Shown here: positions 52,459 to 61,273 of the stretch, piece by piece
Position numbering within the stretch: position 1 is the stretch's first letter
Layout of the letters: each line of letters opens with the position of its first letter
Assembly (NCBI GenBank): GCA_035697485.1
Contig: DASSCU010000062.1
Span: 1 to 61,273, forward strand
Origin: Actinomycetota bacterium
GTDB taxonomy: Bacteria; Actinomycetota; UBA4738; HRBIN12
Reading direction: 5' to 3'
DNA length: 61,273 bases
Program-made: the position numbers and the translations under genes
The notes under the pieces: model-generated
What the model was told of the DNA's origin: nothing
Databases searched by the model: none
The model's input: the letters and a program-made list of their open reading frames with translations, nothing else

Positions 52459-52531
52459 GGGCCCATAGCTCAGCTGGTAGAGCGCTTGGCTGGCAGCCAA
52501 GAGGTCAGGGGTTCGACTCCCCTTGGGTCCA
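52459..52531 (+). tRNA. tRNA-Ala (anticodon GGC)
   Basis: A complete cloverleaf of 73 nt. The acceptor stem is GGGCCCA with TGGGTCC (one G-U), the D arm contains AGCTCAGCTGGTAGAGC, the anticodon arm CTTGG-CTGGCAG-CCAAG gives anticodon GGC, and the T arm is AGGGG-TTCGACT-CCCCT. The discriminator is A; the 3' CCA is not encoded (CCG follows). It reads GCC codons, the main alanine codon of this genome. An integrase pseudogene starts 143 nt downstream, so the tRNA 3' end is a likely attachment site. Confidence 0.97.
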
Positions 52532-52547
52532 CCGACCCTGACCTGCG

Positions 52548-52621
52548 GGAACGCAGGAACGCAGGAACAGGAGCGGCGGAGCGATCCGAGCGCGGTGAGA
52601 TTCCGCAACGGATTCCGCAAC
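52548..52621 (+). repeat. Two short tandem repeats between tRNA-Ala and the integrase remnant
   Basis: GGAACGCA occurs twice in tandem at 52548-52563 with a partial third copy to 52568. A second pair, GATTCCGCAAC (52599-52609 and 52611-52621), has a 12-bp period. They lie where arm-type integrase sites would be expected, next to the putative attachment site. That function is inference. Confidence 0.5.
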
Positions 52622-52674
52622 CGCGACCCACGGTGCCAGAGCGCACTCCCGTCCCGCGAGGGAAGGAGTGCAGT

Positions 52675-53410
52675 ATGCCCAGGCACAAGCGGAACATCGG
52701 AAGCATCACGCGGAAGACGAACGGGCGCTGGTATGCAGAAGTCTCCGTGCAAGACCCGGTTTGCGGCCGCTCAAAGCGCGTTGCGCTCGGCGGGTTCAGC
52801 ACGAAGGACGACGCGGAGCGCGCAATCGCAAAGGCAGTCACGGAAATGGCGACCGGCGGATTCGTGATGCCGGACCGTACGACTCTCGGTGCGTATCTCT
52901 CCGAGAACTGGCTTCCGTCCGATCGAAGGAGACATCCGGCCGACGACCATGGCGAACTATCAGGCTCTCTCCCGCTGCTACGTTCTGCGGTATCCGATCG
53001 GCGGGCTGCGGCTCGCGTCGCTGAGCGAGCTGGACTTCAAGGGCCACTACGCGGTGCTCCGTCGAGCAGGCGGCCGTGCTCGCATTGGCCTTTCACCTAC
53101 CACCGTGCTCCACGTCCACGCGGTGCTCCGTCGAGCGCTTGAGGACGCCGTAGCTTCACGGCTCATCCCTCGGAATCCCGCTCCTCGAAAGCGCCCACGC
53201 GTGGAGAGGGTGGAGCATGCCTGGTTGCTCCCTGAGCAGGTCGGGGAGCTGCTGGCGTTCGCGCGCTTCCGCGATCCAGATCTTTATCCCGCCTTCCGTC
53301 TCGCGGCGCTCGACGAGACTCCGGCGGGCCGAGCTTGCGGGCCTCCGTTGGTCGGATATCGACCTCATCGACCGAACGATCTCCATCTCTCGAACAAGGA
53401 CCATCGCCGG
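52675..53410 (+). pseudogene. Tyrosine-type phage integrase, frameshifted and 3'-truncated
   Basis: The gene starts well: GGAAGGAG, then an ATG and an AP2-like arm-binding N-terminus (GSITRKTNGRWYAEV, GGFSTKDDAERAIAKA). A one-base insertion near 52921 shifts the frame just after SENWLPS, and homology continues in another frame (IRPTTMANYQALSR, then HVHAVLRRALEDAV, AWLLPEQVGELLAFAR). A second insertion near 53313 shifts again into TRLRRAELAGLRWSDIDL, which holds the first catalytic arginine. Similarity stops near 53410, before the HxxR box and tyrosine. It cannot be active. Its position beside tRNA-Ala marks an old integration. Confidence 0.85.
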
Positions 53411-54375
53411 GGGAGGGGCAACACCGCCTCGAATGACGGCGGCGGGATCTCCAGTGGAGGTAGCGCGACCATCACCAGCTCTGTGTTCTCAGACAACACA
53501 TCGGAACATGGCGGTGCCATCGCCGGTGACGGCGCGTTGAACGTCGCCCTCTCCACGTTCTCGAACAACACCGCTTCGGGGTACGTGGCGGCCGGTGGTG
53601 GCATCAACAACAACGGCGGCATCTTCACCGTCACCAACTCGACCTTCACTGGCAACACAGCCTCAGGGGGAGACGCCTACGGCGGTACCATTTACGGCAC
53701 GGGCTTCACTCCCGTCCTCGAAGTCGTCGGCTCCACCCTCTCCGGGAACCTTGCCTCGGCGACGGACGGAGCCCGCGGAGGCGCGATCATGAGCGGCTCC
53801 TACAACGACGACGGCATCTTCACGGTCACCAACTCGACTTTCTCGGGCAACTCCGCCATGGGAGGAACCGCTCCGGTCAGCGGCGGCGCGATCGACAGCA
53901 TGAGTGGAACCATCACCAACTCCACTCTCTGGGGCAACAGCATCTCGCCGGGCCCGAACAGCCACGGCGGCGGTATAGCGAGTACGTTTCCTATCCGACG
54001 ACGCTTCGAAACCCTGTCGTGGCGAACAGCTTGGTGGGGGAGACTGCTACAGCTCGATCGTCGATGCGGGACACAACATCTCCTCGGACGCGACCTGCGG
54101 ATTCGCCGCCAACAACTCGCAACCGAACACCGACCCCAACCTCGGACCGCTCGCCAACAACGGTGGCCCGACCGAGACGATGCTTCCGGCGGCGGGCTCT
54201 CCGGCGATCGACCAAATTCCCTCGGGGACCAACGGGTGCGGGACGACGATCGCGACCGACCAGCGGGGAGTCTCCCGGCCCCAGGGCACCAGCCGCGACA
54301 TCGGTGCCGTGGAGGTGGAGGCAGAGTTCTACACGTTCAATGGCTTCTACGCTCCGGTGGGCAACGGCGTCGCCA
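53411..54375 (+). pseudogene. Internal part of a secreted right-handed beta-helix protein (choice-of-anchor type), broken
   Basis: A frame continuous with the middle integrase frame encodes parallel beta-helix coils: GGGISSGGSATITSSVFSDN, FTVTNSTFTGNTASGG, FTVTNSTFSGNSAMGG and ITNSTLWGNS. The frame shifts near 53980 (EYVSYPTTLRNPVVANSLV) and again near 54036 at a run of five G (DCYSSIVDAGHNISSD, then LANNGGPTETMLPAAGSPAID and TSRDIGAVE), the typical end of such helices. EFYTFNGFYAPVGN starts the next domain and is cut off. Both ends are missing: no signal peptide, no anchor. It is a gene fragment moved here and decayed. Confidence 0.8.
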
Positions 54376-54379
54376 ACGT

Positions 54380-54499
54380 GGGCTCTCCTACCGTCAGATC
54401 GCCGACCGTCTCGAAGCAGAAGGCCTGCGACCGAGGAGCGGTGGACGCTGGCACCCGCCGATGGTGTCGCGGCTGGTGAACAACAAGGCGAACGGATGA
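54380..54499 (+). pseudogene. C-terminal HTH fragment of a serine recombinase
   Basis: The frame reads GLSYRQIADRLEAEGLRPR, then SGGRWHPPMVSRLVNNKANG and a stop. This is the helix-turn-helix pattern found in Pfam Recombinase/resolvase proteins (SYREIAxxLNxxGxxxRxGxxW). No catalytic domain is present upstream in the window. It abuts the broken beta-helix gene without a gap, so a deletion or recombination joined them. The frame happens to be open back to 52889, making a 536-codon chimeric ORF that is probably accidental. Confidence 0.65.
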
Positions 54500-54663
54500 C
54501 GGAAGCCTGCCCTGATCGAGGCGGGGCCGAAGAGTCGACTGAAGCACCCCGCTCTTCAGACTCGGAGGCAACCGCTCTCGGCGAGTGGGGACCCCACCTG
54601 AGCTACGGTGAACACTCGGAGGCGACCCGTCTTCCGTGTTGGGGACCCCATCCTGGCTACTGA
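54496..54663 (+). repeat. 54-bp direct repeat, two copies, with palindromic core, inside a 55-codon ORF
   Basis: ACTCGGAGGC at 54560 and again at 54614 opens two similar units of 54 bp. Each has the palindrome TGGGGACCCCA (54586-54596 and 54640-54650) and ends CTGagCTAC or CTGgCTAC. The ATG at 54496 overlaps the recombinase-fragment stop and gives a 55-residue peptide whose 18-residue period (SEATxLxxWGPHxxY) reflects the DNA repeat. The other strand is open too (GSPxxxxGxLRV). A mobile or interspersed DNA repeat is more likely than a gene. Confidence 0.55.
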
Positions 54664-54752
54664 TCGAGTTTCCATCCGAAGCCCTCGAAAGATCGGAAAG
54701 CTGAGTACGCCAACAGAGTGCGATGACTGGAGCGAGCCAGCTGCCATCGCAA

Positions 54753-54758
54753 TAGGCT
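54753..54758 (+). promoter_or_regulatory. -10 hexamer of the cyclase-AAA-TPR gene (leaderless)
   Basis: TAGGCT, 6 nt before the ATG at 54765. Confidence 0.5.
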
Positions 54759-54764
54759 CCGAGG

Positions 54765-57700
54765 ATGGCCACGTGCCCCACCTGCGGTCACGAGAACCCT
54801 GACGAGCTGAAGTTCTGCGGCGAATGCGGCACCAAGCTCGAGGCCCCTGTGCGCGAAGAGCGAAAGGTCATCACCGCCTTGTTCTGCGACCTGGTCGGGT
54901 TCACCGCCACCTCGGAGGCCGCCGACCCCGAGGACGTGGACAAGATGCTCGTGTCGTACTTCTTGATGGCACGCACCACGATCGAGGCCTACGGCGGGGT
55001 CGTGGAAAAGTTCATCGGTGATGCCGTCGTCGGGATGTTCGGTGTACCCGCCGCCCACGAAGACGATCCCGAGCGCGCCGTCCGCGCCGGTCTTCGGATC
55101 GCGGAGGACGCCGAGGAGCTCGAGGCCATCGGAGGCGAACCGCTCAGGCTCCGCGTCGGGATCAACACCGGCGAGGCCCTGGTCCGCCTCGGCGTCACCC
55201 CGGGCTCGGGGGAGCGGATGCTCGCCGGGGATGCGGTCAACACCGCCTCGAGGATCCAGTCGGTGGCTCCCGAGTTGGGGGTGGCGGTCGGGCTCGGGAC
55301 CTACGAGGCGACCGCGCGGGTCTTCGACTACGAGGAGCTCGAACCCGCCACGCTCAAGGGCAAGTCAGAGCCGGTGCGGGTGTTCCACGCGAAGAACCCC
55401 TTAGCTCGGTTCGGCACCGACCTCACCCGGACCCGCGACACCCCGTTCATCGGCCGCGAGATCGACCTGGCGCTCCTCAAGGGCATCTTCGACAAGGCGG
55501 TGACGGCCACCTCACCTCAGCTCGTCACCGTGGTCGGGGAGCCCGGCCTGGGCAAGAGCCGGATCGTGGCGGAGCTGCTCGGGTACGTCGACAGCAAGCC
55601 CGACCTGATCACCTGGCGTCAGGGACGGTGTCTCCCCTACGGAGAGGGCATCACGTTCTGGGCGCTCGGCGAGATCCTGAAGGCCCACGCCGGGATCCTC
55701 GAATCCGACCCACCCGATGTCGCCACGACGAAGCTCGATCTCGTCCTCCCCGAGGGCGAGGAACGTCCGTGGTTCCGCCAGCGCCTGCTGCCCCTGCTCG
55801 GGATCGAGGCCACCTCCACCGCCGAACGCGAAGAGCTGTTCACCGCCTGGCGGCGGTTCCTGGAGTACGTCGCCGAACAGGACCCGACCGTGCTCGTCTT
55901 CGAAGACCTGCATTGGGCGGATGAGGCGATGCTCGCCTTCTTGGAGCACCTCGCCGATCGTGCCGAAGGCGTGCCCCTGCTCGTGGTCGGCACCGCACGA
56001 CCGGAGCTCTTCGAACGACGCCCCGACTATGCCGCGGGCCTGCGGAACATCACCATGATCAACCTCTTGCCGCTGTCGGAAGGAGAGACTGCGCGCCTCG
56101 TCTCCTCGCTGCTCGAGACCACCGTGATCGCGGCCAAACTCCAACAGCCGGTCTTGGACCGCGCCGGCGGCAACCCCCTCTACGCCGAGGAGTTCGTCCG
56201 GCTGTTGGAGGACAAGGACCTTCTGATCAAGAAGGGCCAGAGCTGGGAGCTGCGCGAAGGTGCCGAGGTCCCGCTCCCTGACTCGGTCCACGCCCTGATC
56301 GCCGCGCGCCTGGACACGCTGTCGTCAGATGCGAAGTCGATGCTCGCAGACGCCGCGGTCGTGGGGAAGGTCTTCTGGGCCGGCGCGATCGCTGAGATGG
56401 GCGACCGCGACCTCACGTCGGTCACCGAAACGCTCTGGGAGCTCTCGCGGAAGGAACTCGTGCGCCATGCACGCCGCTCATCGGTCGAGGGCGAAGCCGA
56501 GTACGCGTTCTGGCACGTGCTCGCCCGCGACGTCGCCTATGGCCAGCTCCCGCGAGCCTCCAGGGCATCCCGCCACGTCGCCGCCGCCCGATGGATCGAG
56601 TCCATCGCCCCCGAACGTGTCGAGGACCTCGCAGATGTCCTCGCCTATCACTACGCGACCGCGCTGGAGTTGGCTCGTGCCGCCGGAGAGACCGAGCGGG
56701 CCGCCGAGCTCGAGGCACCGGCGCTTCGGTTCCTCTCCCTCGCCGGTGAACGCGCGCTCGGACTCGACACCGCCGCGGCGCTCGCCAACCTGGAGCAGGC
56801 GCTCGCGCTCGCACCCCAAGGACATCCCGAACGGCCCGATGTGCTCGCCCGCTTCGGTGAGGCCGCTCTCGATGCTGGGCGTTTCGCTGAAGCGAAGGAT
56901 GCTCTGGATGAGGCGATTGCGGCCTTTAGCTCAGCGGGCGACCTTCGCGCCACAGCCCGCGCGATGGACACGCTGGGCAACGTGCTATTCCGACTCGGGG
57001 ATCCGCGGACCTGGACGGTCCCCGAAGAAGCGCTCGGGCTCTTGGAGCCGCTCGGGCCAACGCGTGATCTAGTCGATGCTCTCACCGAGGTTGCTGCTAC
57101 CGAGGCCATTCAAGGCAGATCCCAGGAAGGGGTGCGAATGGCCGACCGGGCGCTCGCTCTCGCTAAAGAGCTCGGCCTTCCTCGCCCCGCGCGCGCCCTC
57201 GGCTTCCGGGGGTATGCCCGCGCGAGCCTTGGGGATCCCGCGGGCTTGGAGGACTTCCGTGAGGCGATCGCGCTTGCAGCTGAGGCGGGGCAGGGCCGCG
57301 AGGGCGCCCTCCTCCTCGGCAATCTCGGCTTGAAACTCTGGCTCATGGAAGGTCCCGCCGCAGCTCTCGAGGTCCTGCACGAGAACATCCGCCACGAGAG
57401 AGCTCGGGGGCTAGCCGACGAGGGCACTGCGGCGTTCACGCTGGACCAACTTGTCGATATGGGCGAGCTCGACGAAGTGAGCGAGGTTGTCGCCAGTCTC
57501 GCGGAGCGTCTGGAGGCGAGCGGGGACGTGACGGACCTCATCCCGGTTCGCGCCGCCCAGGCCCGGATCCTCAGCCTACGAGGGCAGGGCAGCACCCAGA
57601 GCGCCCAGGGGCTCGATTGGCTCGAAGCCGCGGCCCGCGTCACCGAGGACCCGAACTCGATCATCCATGGCCTTGGCTCCTCCGCTTTGGCGCGCGCCGA

Positions 57701-58172
57701 GTTCGATCAGAACGAGGTTGCCGATGCGTTGCTCACTGAGCTTGAGGCGCTCCCCGGCGCCCGTGACGCCGTGAACTACCCCGTCTTGCTCCCGGCAATG
57801 ACGCGCGCGGCTCTGAGGGTCAGGGATCCCGCCCTTGCCCAACGTCTCGTGGCGGGCGTCGAACCCCGCACGCCCTACGCCGAGCATGCCTTCGTTGCGG
57901 CGAATGCCGTCCTCAATTGGGCCCGCGGGGATTTCCAGGCAGCTGCCGACGCCTACGCCGACGCCGCCGAGCGCTGGGGGCGATTCGGGGTGGTGCCCGA
58001 GCAGGCGTTCGCACTCATCGGCCGGGGCCGGTGCCTCCTGGGACTCTCCCGACCGACCGAGGCCGCTCCGGTCCTGCGCCGTGCTCGGTCGATCTTCGAC
58101 CGGCTCCAGGCCGCCCCGGCGCTCGCCGAGACCGACGCGCTCCTAGAGAAGGCCATCGCGCTCAGCTCCTAG
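54765..58172 (+). CDS. Adenylate/guanylate cyclase-type regulator with zinc ribbon, AAA ATPase and TPR repeats
   Basis: An 1135-residue cytoplasmic protein. A zinc ribbon (C4, C7, C18, C21) opens it. A class III cyclase domain (about 33-215) carries both metal aspartates, D42 in CDLVGFT and D86 in IGDAVVGMFG, and RVGINTGEAL. A STAND/AAA ATPase follows: Walker A GEPGLGKSR near residue 260, Walker B VLVFEDLHWAD near 380. The rest (about 600-1135) is helical TPR-like repeats. There is no LuxR HTH. The family is numerous in actinobacteria and its signals are mostly unknown. It may make cAMP or only use the fold for nucleotide sensing. It lies among decayed mobile DNA but is itself intact. Confidence 0.9.
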   Translation: MATCPTCGHENPDELKFCGECGTKLEAPVREERKVITALFCDLVGFTATSEAADPEDVDKMLVSYFLMARTTIEAYGGVVEKFIGDAVVGMFGVPAAHEDDPERAVRAGLRIAEDAEELEAIGGEPLRLRVGINTGEALVRLGVTPGSGERMLAGDAVNTASRIQSVAPELGVAVGLGTYEATARVFDYEELEPATLKGKSEPVRVFHAKNPLARFGTDLTRTRDTPFIGREIDLALLKGIFDKAVTATSPQLVTVVGEPGLGKSRIVAELLGYVDSKPDLITWRQGRCLPYGEGITFWALGEILKAHAGILESDPPDVATTKLDLVLPEGEERPWFRQRLLPLLGIEATSTAEREELFTAWRRFLEYVAEQDPTVLVFEDLHWADEAMLAFLEHLADRAEGVPLLVVGTARPELFERRPDYAAGLRNITMINLLPLSEGETARLVSSLLETTVIAAKLQQPVLDRAGGNPLYAEEFVRLLEDKDLLIKKGQSWELREGAEVPLPDSVHALIAARLDTLSSDAKSMLADAAVVGKVFWAGAIAEMGDRDLTSVTETLWELSRKELVRHARRSSVEGEAEYAFWHVLARDVAYGQLPRASRASRHVAAARWIESIAPERVEDLADVLAYHYATALELARAAGETERAAELEAPALRFLSLAGERALGLDTAAALANLEQALALAPQGHPERPDVLARFGEAALDAGRFAEAKDALDEAIAAFSSAGDLRATARAMDTLGNVLFRLGDPRTWTVPEEALGLLEPLGPTRDLVDALTEVAATEAIQGRSQEGVRMADRALALAKELGLPRPARALGFRGYARASLGDPAGLEDFREAIALAAEAGQGREGALLLGNLGLKLWLMEGPAAALEVLHENIRHERARGLADEGTAAFTLDQLVDMGELDEVSEVVASLAERLEASGDVTDLIPVRAAQARILSLRGQGSTQSAQGLDWLEAAARVTEDPNSIIHGLGSSALARAEFDQNEVADALLTELEALPGARDAVNYPVLLPAMTRAALRVRDPALAQRLVAGVEPRTPYAEHAFVAANAVLNWARGDFQAAADAYADAAERWGRFGVVPEQAFALIGRGRCLLGLSRPTEAAPVLRRARSIFDRLQAAPALAETDALLEKAIALSS

Positions 58173-58435
58173 CGGGCGAGTTCCTGCGCCAGTCAACCCT
58201 GGAACGTGTTGTCGCGGATCTTGAAGAGGTAGGCAGGCACGCCCTCTTGCTGGGCCCGGCGGGGCCTGGCTCAGGGTCTGAGCTGACTGGGAAGGCCTTT
58301 CCCCTTCCGAATGAAAGTTGTAGACAAGAAACGACGAAGATCAAGAACGTCGCGAGAGAATGCCCGCACGATTCTCCGGGACGCGCTTCTCCGTTGAGCA
58401 GCACTTGGCGCGCCGAGACGCTCAGGGAGGGCGTC
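58173..58435 (+). other. 263-nt stretch without a recognisable gene
   Basis: One frame overlapping the cyclase gene stays open here and reads FLRQSTLERVVADLEEVGRHALLL, with good coding character but no start and no family I can name; it may be a scrap of a lost gene. An A-rich segment (about 58315-58355) is unusual for this genome and may hold the promoter of the beta-helix gene. Confidence 0.3.
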
Positions 58436-59434
58436 ATGCGCACCATGCCGGCACCGCTTCGCAGGTACCTCACCGTGATCTCCACCGGCATCCTGCTCGC
58501 GCCGTTGATCAGCACCGCGTTCCCTGCGAGCGCCGTCGCGAGCCACGTCAGCTGCGGAGAGACGATCACCACCGACACGACCCTCGACAGCGACCTCGTC
58601 AACTGCCCGAACAACGGGATCGTGATCGGGGCCTCCGACATCACCCTGGATCTGAACGGCCACACGATCGACGGGAATGACGCCTTGGTGGACCCGTGCC
58701 CCGAGGACGAGTTCTGCGACGTCGGGGTCGCCAACGATGACCACAACAATGTCAGGGTCATCGACGGGACCGTGACGGAGTTCGCGTTCGGCGTGTACCT
58801 CTTTGGCGCGAGAGAGAATGCCCTGCGCGACCTCGCCACGATCGAGATCGTCTTCAGCGGCATCATCCTCGTCGACTCTGCGCGAACGCGCGTGCGAGGG
58901 AACACGACCTCTCGAAACGCCGGTCCTGACAGCGGCGTCGGTATGACGCTGTTCTCGTCCCACAACAACCGGATCATCGACAACACGAGTGCCGACAACG
59001 CCGAGCTGGGTATCCATCTCATCCGATCCGACCGCAATCACATCGGGCGCAATCGGGTACGCCGCAACCCGGAGGATCGGATCATCCTGGAGGGCGACCG
59101 CAACCGCATCGTCCGGAACCGCCTGGTGGGGAACAGCATCGGGGTCACCACCTTCACGGGCGGCGAACGATCGGTCGGCAACGTGGTGCGTCGCAACCAG
59201 GTGCGCCGCGCCCCCCGCGCCGGGATATACGCCTCCCCGCCGACGCGCGCCGTGATCCGGCGCAACCACGTCTTCGGTGCGGGAGCCGACGGCATCTCCG
59301 TCGGAAGCTCCAGAACCACGCTGACCCGCAATGAGGCCAGGAACAACGGCCGTCTCGGTATCAATGCAGTCGCTGGCGTGATCGATGGCGGCGGCACCGG
59401 GCTAGCGGGAACGGGGATCCGCGCCAGTGTGTGA
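58436..59434 (+). CDS. Secreted right-handed parallel beta-helix protein (NosD/pectate-lyase-like fold)
   Basis: A 332-residue exported protein. The signal peptide (MRTMPAPLRRYL, hydrophobic core, PASAVAS) is followed by an N-cap with CGETITTDTTLDSDLVNC, then beta-helix coils: GIVIGASDITLDLNGHTIDG, NNVRVIDGTV, SGIILVDSARTRVRGN, NRIIDNTSADN, NHIGRNRVRRN, NRIVRNRLVGN and more. This is the Pfam Beta_helix/NosD pattern, with no clear catalytic residues. GGGAGG lies before the ATG at 58436. Unlike the broken helix gene at 53411, it is whole. It probably binds or modifies polysaccharide outside the cell. Confidence 0.85.
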   Translation: MRTMPAPLRRYLTVISTGILLAPLISTAFPASAVASHVSCGETITTDTTLDSDLVNCPNNGIVIGASDITLDLNGHTIDGNDALVDPCPEDEFCDVGVANDDHNNVRVIDGTVTEFAFGVYLFGARENALRDLATIEIVFSGIILVDSARTRVRGNTTSRNAGPDSGVGMTLFSSHNNRIIDNTSADNAELGIHLIRSDRNHIGRNRVRRNPEDRIILEGDRNRIVRNRLVGNSIGVTTFTGGERSVGNVVRRNQVRRAPRAGIYASPPTRAVIRRNHVFGAGADGISVGSSRTTLTRNEARNNGRLGINAVAGVIDGGGTGLAGTGIRASV

Positions 59435-61077: not shown

Positions 61078-61273
61078 ATGAGCGACCCGACGATCGACGC
61101 AGCCCGCGATGTCCTGGCGGAGAGCCTCGATGAGATTCGCCGCGGCATCGCGGGTCTCACGGTGGATCAGCTCAACGCGAAGCCCGCGGGAGGGGAGACC
61201 AACTCGGTCGCCGTGATCGCGACCCACGCGCTCGCGAGCACCCGCTCGTATATGAGCATCGCGGTCGGCGCGC
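61078..61273 (+). CDS. DinB-family protein, N-terminal part (runs off window end)
   Basis: Sixty-five codons are visible from the ATG: a first helix (AARDVLAESLDEIRRGIAGL), VDQLNAKPAGGETNSVAVIA, then THALASTRSYMSIAVG, with the histidine that begins the DinB metal site and helix 2 following. This matches the DUF664/DinB pattern of actinobacteria. TAGCCT ends 6 nt before the start. Confidence 0.75.
   Translation, partial: MSDPTIDAARDVLAESLDEIRRGIAGLTVDQLNAKPAGGETNSVAVIATHALASTRSYMSIAVGA

Follow-up and report, generated by a model that had tools for sequence, protein, structure and literature searches.

Displaced tRNA-Ala(GGC) 3′ ends and broken mobile-element genes: a probable decayed tandem island in an uncultured actinobacterial lineage

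Directly downstream of a tRNA-Ala(GGC) gene in an actinobacterial genome lie scraps of a tyrosine integrase, a beta-helix gene and a serine recombinase, crossed by a single long open reading frame. How did these scraps come to lie together beside the tRNA, and does the frame that crosses them encode a protein? We addressed these questions in the window, the whole stretch of 61,273 nucleotides that was analyzed, and in related genomes. The tRNA gene (52459-52533, + strand; ARAGORN) is intact, is the only tRNA in the window, and begins 14 bases past the end of an intact rsfS gene. We read it as the restored target gene of integrating elements and as the attL side of the inserted DNA.

Three broken genes and their setting

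An integrase HMM of 422 positions was built from 28 intact relatives, which were detected at E <= 1e-10 in 25 genomes when 396 from the phylum, its own among them, were searched. Three pieces of integrase were identified on the + strand: an arm-binding N-terminus in frame 0 (52675-52923; PF14657, E = 6e-5) matching HMM positions 30-115 and phrog_1 positions 116-174, a core-binding domain in frame 1 (52895-53320) matching HMM positions 114-240 and phrog_1 positions 180-298 (E = 1.4e-13), and the start of the catalytic domain in frame 2 (53292-53411) matching HMM positions 240-281 and phrog_1 positions 299-339. By the HMM, the three pieces are collinear in three frames with no gap between them, and PHROG independently gives the same order; there are therefore two frame changes, at about 52915-52928 and 53311. 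All sequence past HMM position 281 is lost, including the consensus motifs LHDLRHTA and DVYSHV, which are the HxxR and tyrosine regions, respectively. The remnant lacks the catalytic HxxR and Tyr of an active tyrosine recombinase. Its domain order is that of phrog_1 tyrosine integrases whose N-terminus is of the Arm-DNA-bind_4 type, whereas the gene here, unlike those, is truncated and frameshifted.

Best matches to the core-binding piece share 31-50% identity. At E <= 1e-8, none of the 26 further genomes searched from the order (27 with its own) matched the integrase piece, which also had no close relatives among named genomes, viral contigs, phages, or plasmids. Within the core-binding piece, an exact 19-base direct repeat (53049-53067 and 53118-53136, 69 bases apart) was also observed, which may reflect local gene conversion during decay.

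The integrase is followed on the + strand by a beta-helix repeat piece in frame 1 that lacks its N-terminus (53408-53989; TIGR01376 POMP_repeat, E = 0.0011) and holds internal repeats D1 and D2. The rest of this gene lies in frame 2 (54039-54380) and carries a choice-of-anchor Q domain (NF041518, E = 1.2e-22, 54132-54320). The middle stretch between them (~53985-54040), which offers too little sequence for a family test, was assigned to frame 0 by reading. No match to the beta-helix piece was found in the other 16 family genomes (17 with its own; E <= 1e-6) or in viral contigs, and among plasmids it matched two Methanosphaera records (41%). A serine-recombinase C-terminal tail in frame 1 (54380-54499, + strand) completes the series, and was recognized by PF07508 (22.2 bits; cutoff 21.1), by phrog_95 (E = 3.6e-5), and by up to 57% identity to plasmid genes annotated as 'recombinase family protein', the closest being on Streptomyces and Rhodococcus plasmids.

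At the first junction, integrase homology extends to 53402 (PHROG) or 53435 (own HMM) and beta-helix homology begins at ~53408; at the second, the choice-of-anchor Q domain is matched up to 54320 and the recombinase from 54380 onwards. The first-pass annotation had described a frameshifted tyrosine integrase cut before its HxxR/Tyr, an internal beta-helix piece with two more shifts, and a serine-recombinase tail, with junctions near 53410 and 54375. The profile and plasmid matches bear out this anatomy, the frame-0 middle of the beta-helix gene by reading, and the homology ends agree with both junctions.

The first intact gene after the tRNA starts 266 bases past the last scrap and encodes a zinc-ribbon / guanylate-cyclase / AAA / TPR protein of 1135 codons (54765-58172, + strand; Pfam). 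This gene was not found after the tRNA in the relatives compared and is probably island cargo. In the spacer before it, a motif of the form ACTCGGAGGC...TGGGGACCCCA...GGCTAC occurs in two imperfect copies 54 bases apart (54560-54660) and nowhere else in the genome, and the spacer as a whole (54490-54764) has no second copy anywhere in the genome. A second right-handed beta-helix gene, NosD-like, lies in the same island (57917-59431) and showed no relation by BLASTP to the broken beta-helix piece.

The 536-codon frame across the scraps

One frame on the + strand is open for 536 codons across all of the pieces (52889-54499). The first-pass annotation had noted this frame, which does exist, had described it as open by chance, and had raised the possibility that a new gene might arise from the chimeric ORF. 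The three parts supply 142 + 194 + 39 = 375 of the 536 codons in their native frames, and the remaining 161 lie outside the frame of every known protein part. When the interval 52534-54764 was shuffled 300 times with dinucleotides preserved, none of the shuffles reached 536 codons (best 494), and the length of the frame is therefore not plain chance; it is explained by the native coding frames and the G+C-rich DNA. 'By chance' was accordingly too strong a description of a frame in which 375 codons are native.

The proposal that the frame constitutes a new functional gene encoding a fusion protein draws on its openness and on its length beyond that of any shuffle. Against it stand the 161 out-of-frame codons, the lack of any fused relative in searches with its parts, and the commonness of equally long stop-free frames, 29 of which (>= 536 codons, both strands) occur in the window. 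We consider it exceedingly improbable that such a fusion gene exists, and just as improbable that the chimeric frame is expressed as a nascent gene made up of three mobile-element scraps next to a tRNA. The evidence lends no support to a functional fusion gene, and annotation pipelines should be warned that the 536-codon frame at this position is not a gene.

Displaced tRNA 3′ ends and variable DNA downstream

A downstream repeat of the tRNA 3′ end, which the first-pass annotation had proposed to look for as an att site, is present in two copies, both outside the window on a second contig, C38. No att repeat was detected within the window, where the best other match to the 24-base T-arm sequence of the tRNA was 16/24. 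Across the 3.41-Mb genome, this sequence (<= 3 mismatches) was found at three sites, namely the tRNA itself and two positions on C38, and a reversed-pattern control yielded none. The first of these tRNA 3′ fragments (scar 1, C38 4230-4259) comprises 30 identical bases in direct orientation, and the second (scar 2, C38 6917-6963) is a longer copy, also direct, whose alignment runs past the tRNA end (87% identity over 67 bases). Both are 3′ ends only, without a 5′ half, and share one direction, with 2.7 kb between them. The two scars resemble each other over 48 bases (88%), ~18 of which are past the tRNA end.

The final 141 bases of the window (61133-61273, + strand) are the start of C38; this overlap sequence has no other occurrence in the genome, and a DinB-like gene is open across the join. 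The overlap, together with the orientation and distances of the scars, therefore gives the order tRNA, 12,828 bp, scar 1 (C38:4230), 2,658 bp, and scar 2 (C38:6917), with the scars on a second contig and the join resting on this single 141-base overlap. The HMM found no integrase between the scars or elsewhere on C38, and the second unit is consequently known by its scar alone. Just before scar 1 ends a second cyclase / AAA / TPR regulator gene (C38, L035, 1519-4185), a type of gene with several further copies in the genome.

Of the 28 intact relatives of the integrase, 13 have a tRNA 3′ end no more than 300 bases away, and in 11 of these 13 the tRNA faces the integrase C-terminal end; tRNA-Ala was beside none of the 13. 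In the window, the tRNA faces the N-terminal side of the integrase, an arrangement shared with the other two. Since this geometry is opposite to that of 11 of the 13 relatives, the visible integrase may not be the maker of the two scars.

The stretch from tRNA to scar is foreign in base composition. The interval 52534-54764 has a G+C content of 64.8%, below that of all 201 same-size upstream windows (mean 69.7%, minimum 65.3%), and the interval from the tRNA to scar 1 (66.4%) is below all 159 same-size upstream windows (minimum 68.8%). Past scar 2, the G+C content of C38 is 71.6%.

We identified rsfS in 15 of the 17 genomes of the family (own included), and tRNA-Ala(GGC) follows it in all 14 of the relatives in which rsfS was found. 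The upstream order nadD-LytR-rsfS-tRNA is kept in relatives and the DNA downstream varies, differing in all comparable relatives. tRNA-Ala(GGC) is also present in the named locus with the highest similarity, that of Actinobacteria bacterium UBA5176. In the 11 of these 14 relatives with usable sequence after the tRNA (0.3-16 kb), no gene of the window or of C38 was detected, and no integrase was identified by HMM near the tRNA in the stretches of relatives examined. Other DNA occupies these sites: a replication-relaxation gene and a transposase follow the same tRNA in one relative (G014), a DNA methylase follows it in another (G011), and in four (G002, G006, G007, and G016) it is followed at 2-7 kb by a saccharopine-dehydrogenase-like gene, a leuS block, or both. 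The one genome from the same genus (G001) had no rsfS match and lacks the locus; tRNA sites of the family carry other DNA. Two relatives hold further copies of the tRNA-Ala 3′ end: one has a fragment of the same tRNA on another contig (G013:C6, L103, ~1483-1530), and in the other a contig breaks off within the tRNA, as would happen at a branch point of the assembly (G008:C204, L102).

In the genome of the window (G000), the saccharopine-dehydrogenase-like/leuS block is on another contig, C11, at 10 kb. This would place the conserved block at least 31 kb from the tRNA with C38 between them, a distance that we infer because the step from the end of C38 to the start of C11 is made without an overlap. 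Between the start of C11 and the leuS block lies a molybdenum-hydroxylase-like and carbamoyltransferase-like cluster (L055, 1-10143; the hydroxylase label is by reading), which is possibly further cargo.

Origin of the locus and comparison with known systems

The locus is very probably the tRNA-proximal end of a decayed tandem tRNA-targeted island in which insertion took place at least twice. The two direct 3′ ends on C38 and the variable DNA downstream support the earlier suggestion that insertion and loss have recurred at this tRNA. The lowered G+C content, the lack of matches to the integrase and beta-helix pieces in relatives, and the proximity of intact integrase relatives to tRNA 3′ ends are in line with the island reading. 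Under this explanation, tyrosine-integrase elements would have integrated within the 3′ portion of the tRNA gene on at least two occasions, with each insertion restoring the tRNA and displacing the old 3′ end downstream. The integrase nearest the tRNA would then have been disrupted, shifting frame twice and losing its catalytic end, and the beta-helix gene and the serine-recombinase tail may have come up against it by deletion or rearrangement. The course of insertion and decay is read from the anatomy of the locus and not from experiment; that this integrase was the agent of insertion, the sequence in which the events took place, and what produced the junctions are inferred. The beta-helix piece and the recombinase tail may not have arrived with the same element, which counts as a limit of the island reading.

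Two other explanations were weighed. The frame changes and junctions could be errors, or a multi-strain chimera, of a metagenome assembly. The genome is in 64 contigs, the 141-base overlap at the contig break is of the kind that graph assemblers leave, and four frame changes are crowded into 2 kb. However, the genes on both flanks, rsfS and the 1135-codon gene, are intact, and the integrase pieces are collinear without a gap, as is expected of old decay and not of random joining. The scars on C38 are also independent of these junctions. An assembly artefact is therefore improbable as a source of the locus. It is slightly less probable still that unrelated events gathered the integrase and recombinase scraps in a spacer and that the C38 fragments are chance or duplicated sequences, not products of site-specific integration. 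The unusual geometry of the integrase and the lack of an integrase between the scars would fit such a history, but the fragments are 3′ ends only, are in direct orientation, and share bases past the tRNA end. Moreover, no other such fragments occur in the genome, and the composition of the whole stretch is shifted.

A decayed tandem island thus remains the preferred reading. On this reading, tRNA-Ala(GGC) is recorded as a hot spot of integration in an uncultured lineage of actinobacteria, and the att scars allow the ends of an island to be placed across a contig break. Wear of this type is a common and well-known kind of genomic decay; it is not surprising and raises no new question.

In the Islander description, the signature of an island is a tRNA with a downstream 3′ fragment at a length of 2-200 kb, and the integrase filter requires an integrase open reading frame (PMC4383910). 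Like the tRNA islands described there, the locus is bounded on one side by an intact tRNA gene, has co-oriented 3′ fragments downstream, falls within the length range, contains integrase sequence, and is arranged in tandem. It differs from those islands in that the fragments are on a joined contig (C38) and not inside the window, in that the integrase between tRNA and fragment is truncated and in three frames rather than intact, and in that the tandem units do not each have their own integrase and fragment, the second unit of 2.7 kb having no integrase at all. A second source (PMC5704250) describes elements termed CIMEs, in which integration and transfer genes are lost and attL and attR are kept, and gives tandem accretion with decay of older members as a described course. 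A CIME derives from an ICE or IME and is mobilizable in cis; no conjugation gene was seen here in the stretches scanned, and such a descent is thus no more than a possibility for this locus. Like the CIMEs and accretion products described there, it retains attL and attR and comprises tandem units at one att site whose integration genes are lost or broken.
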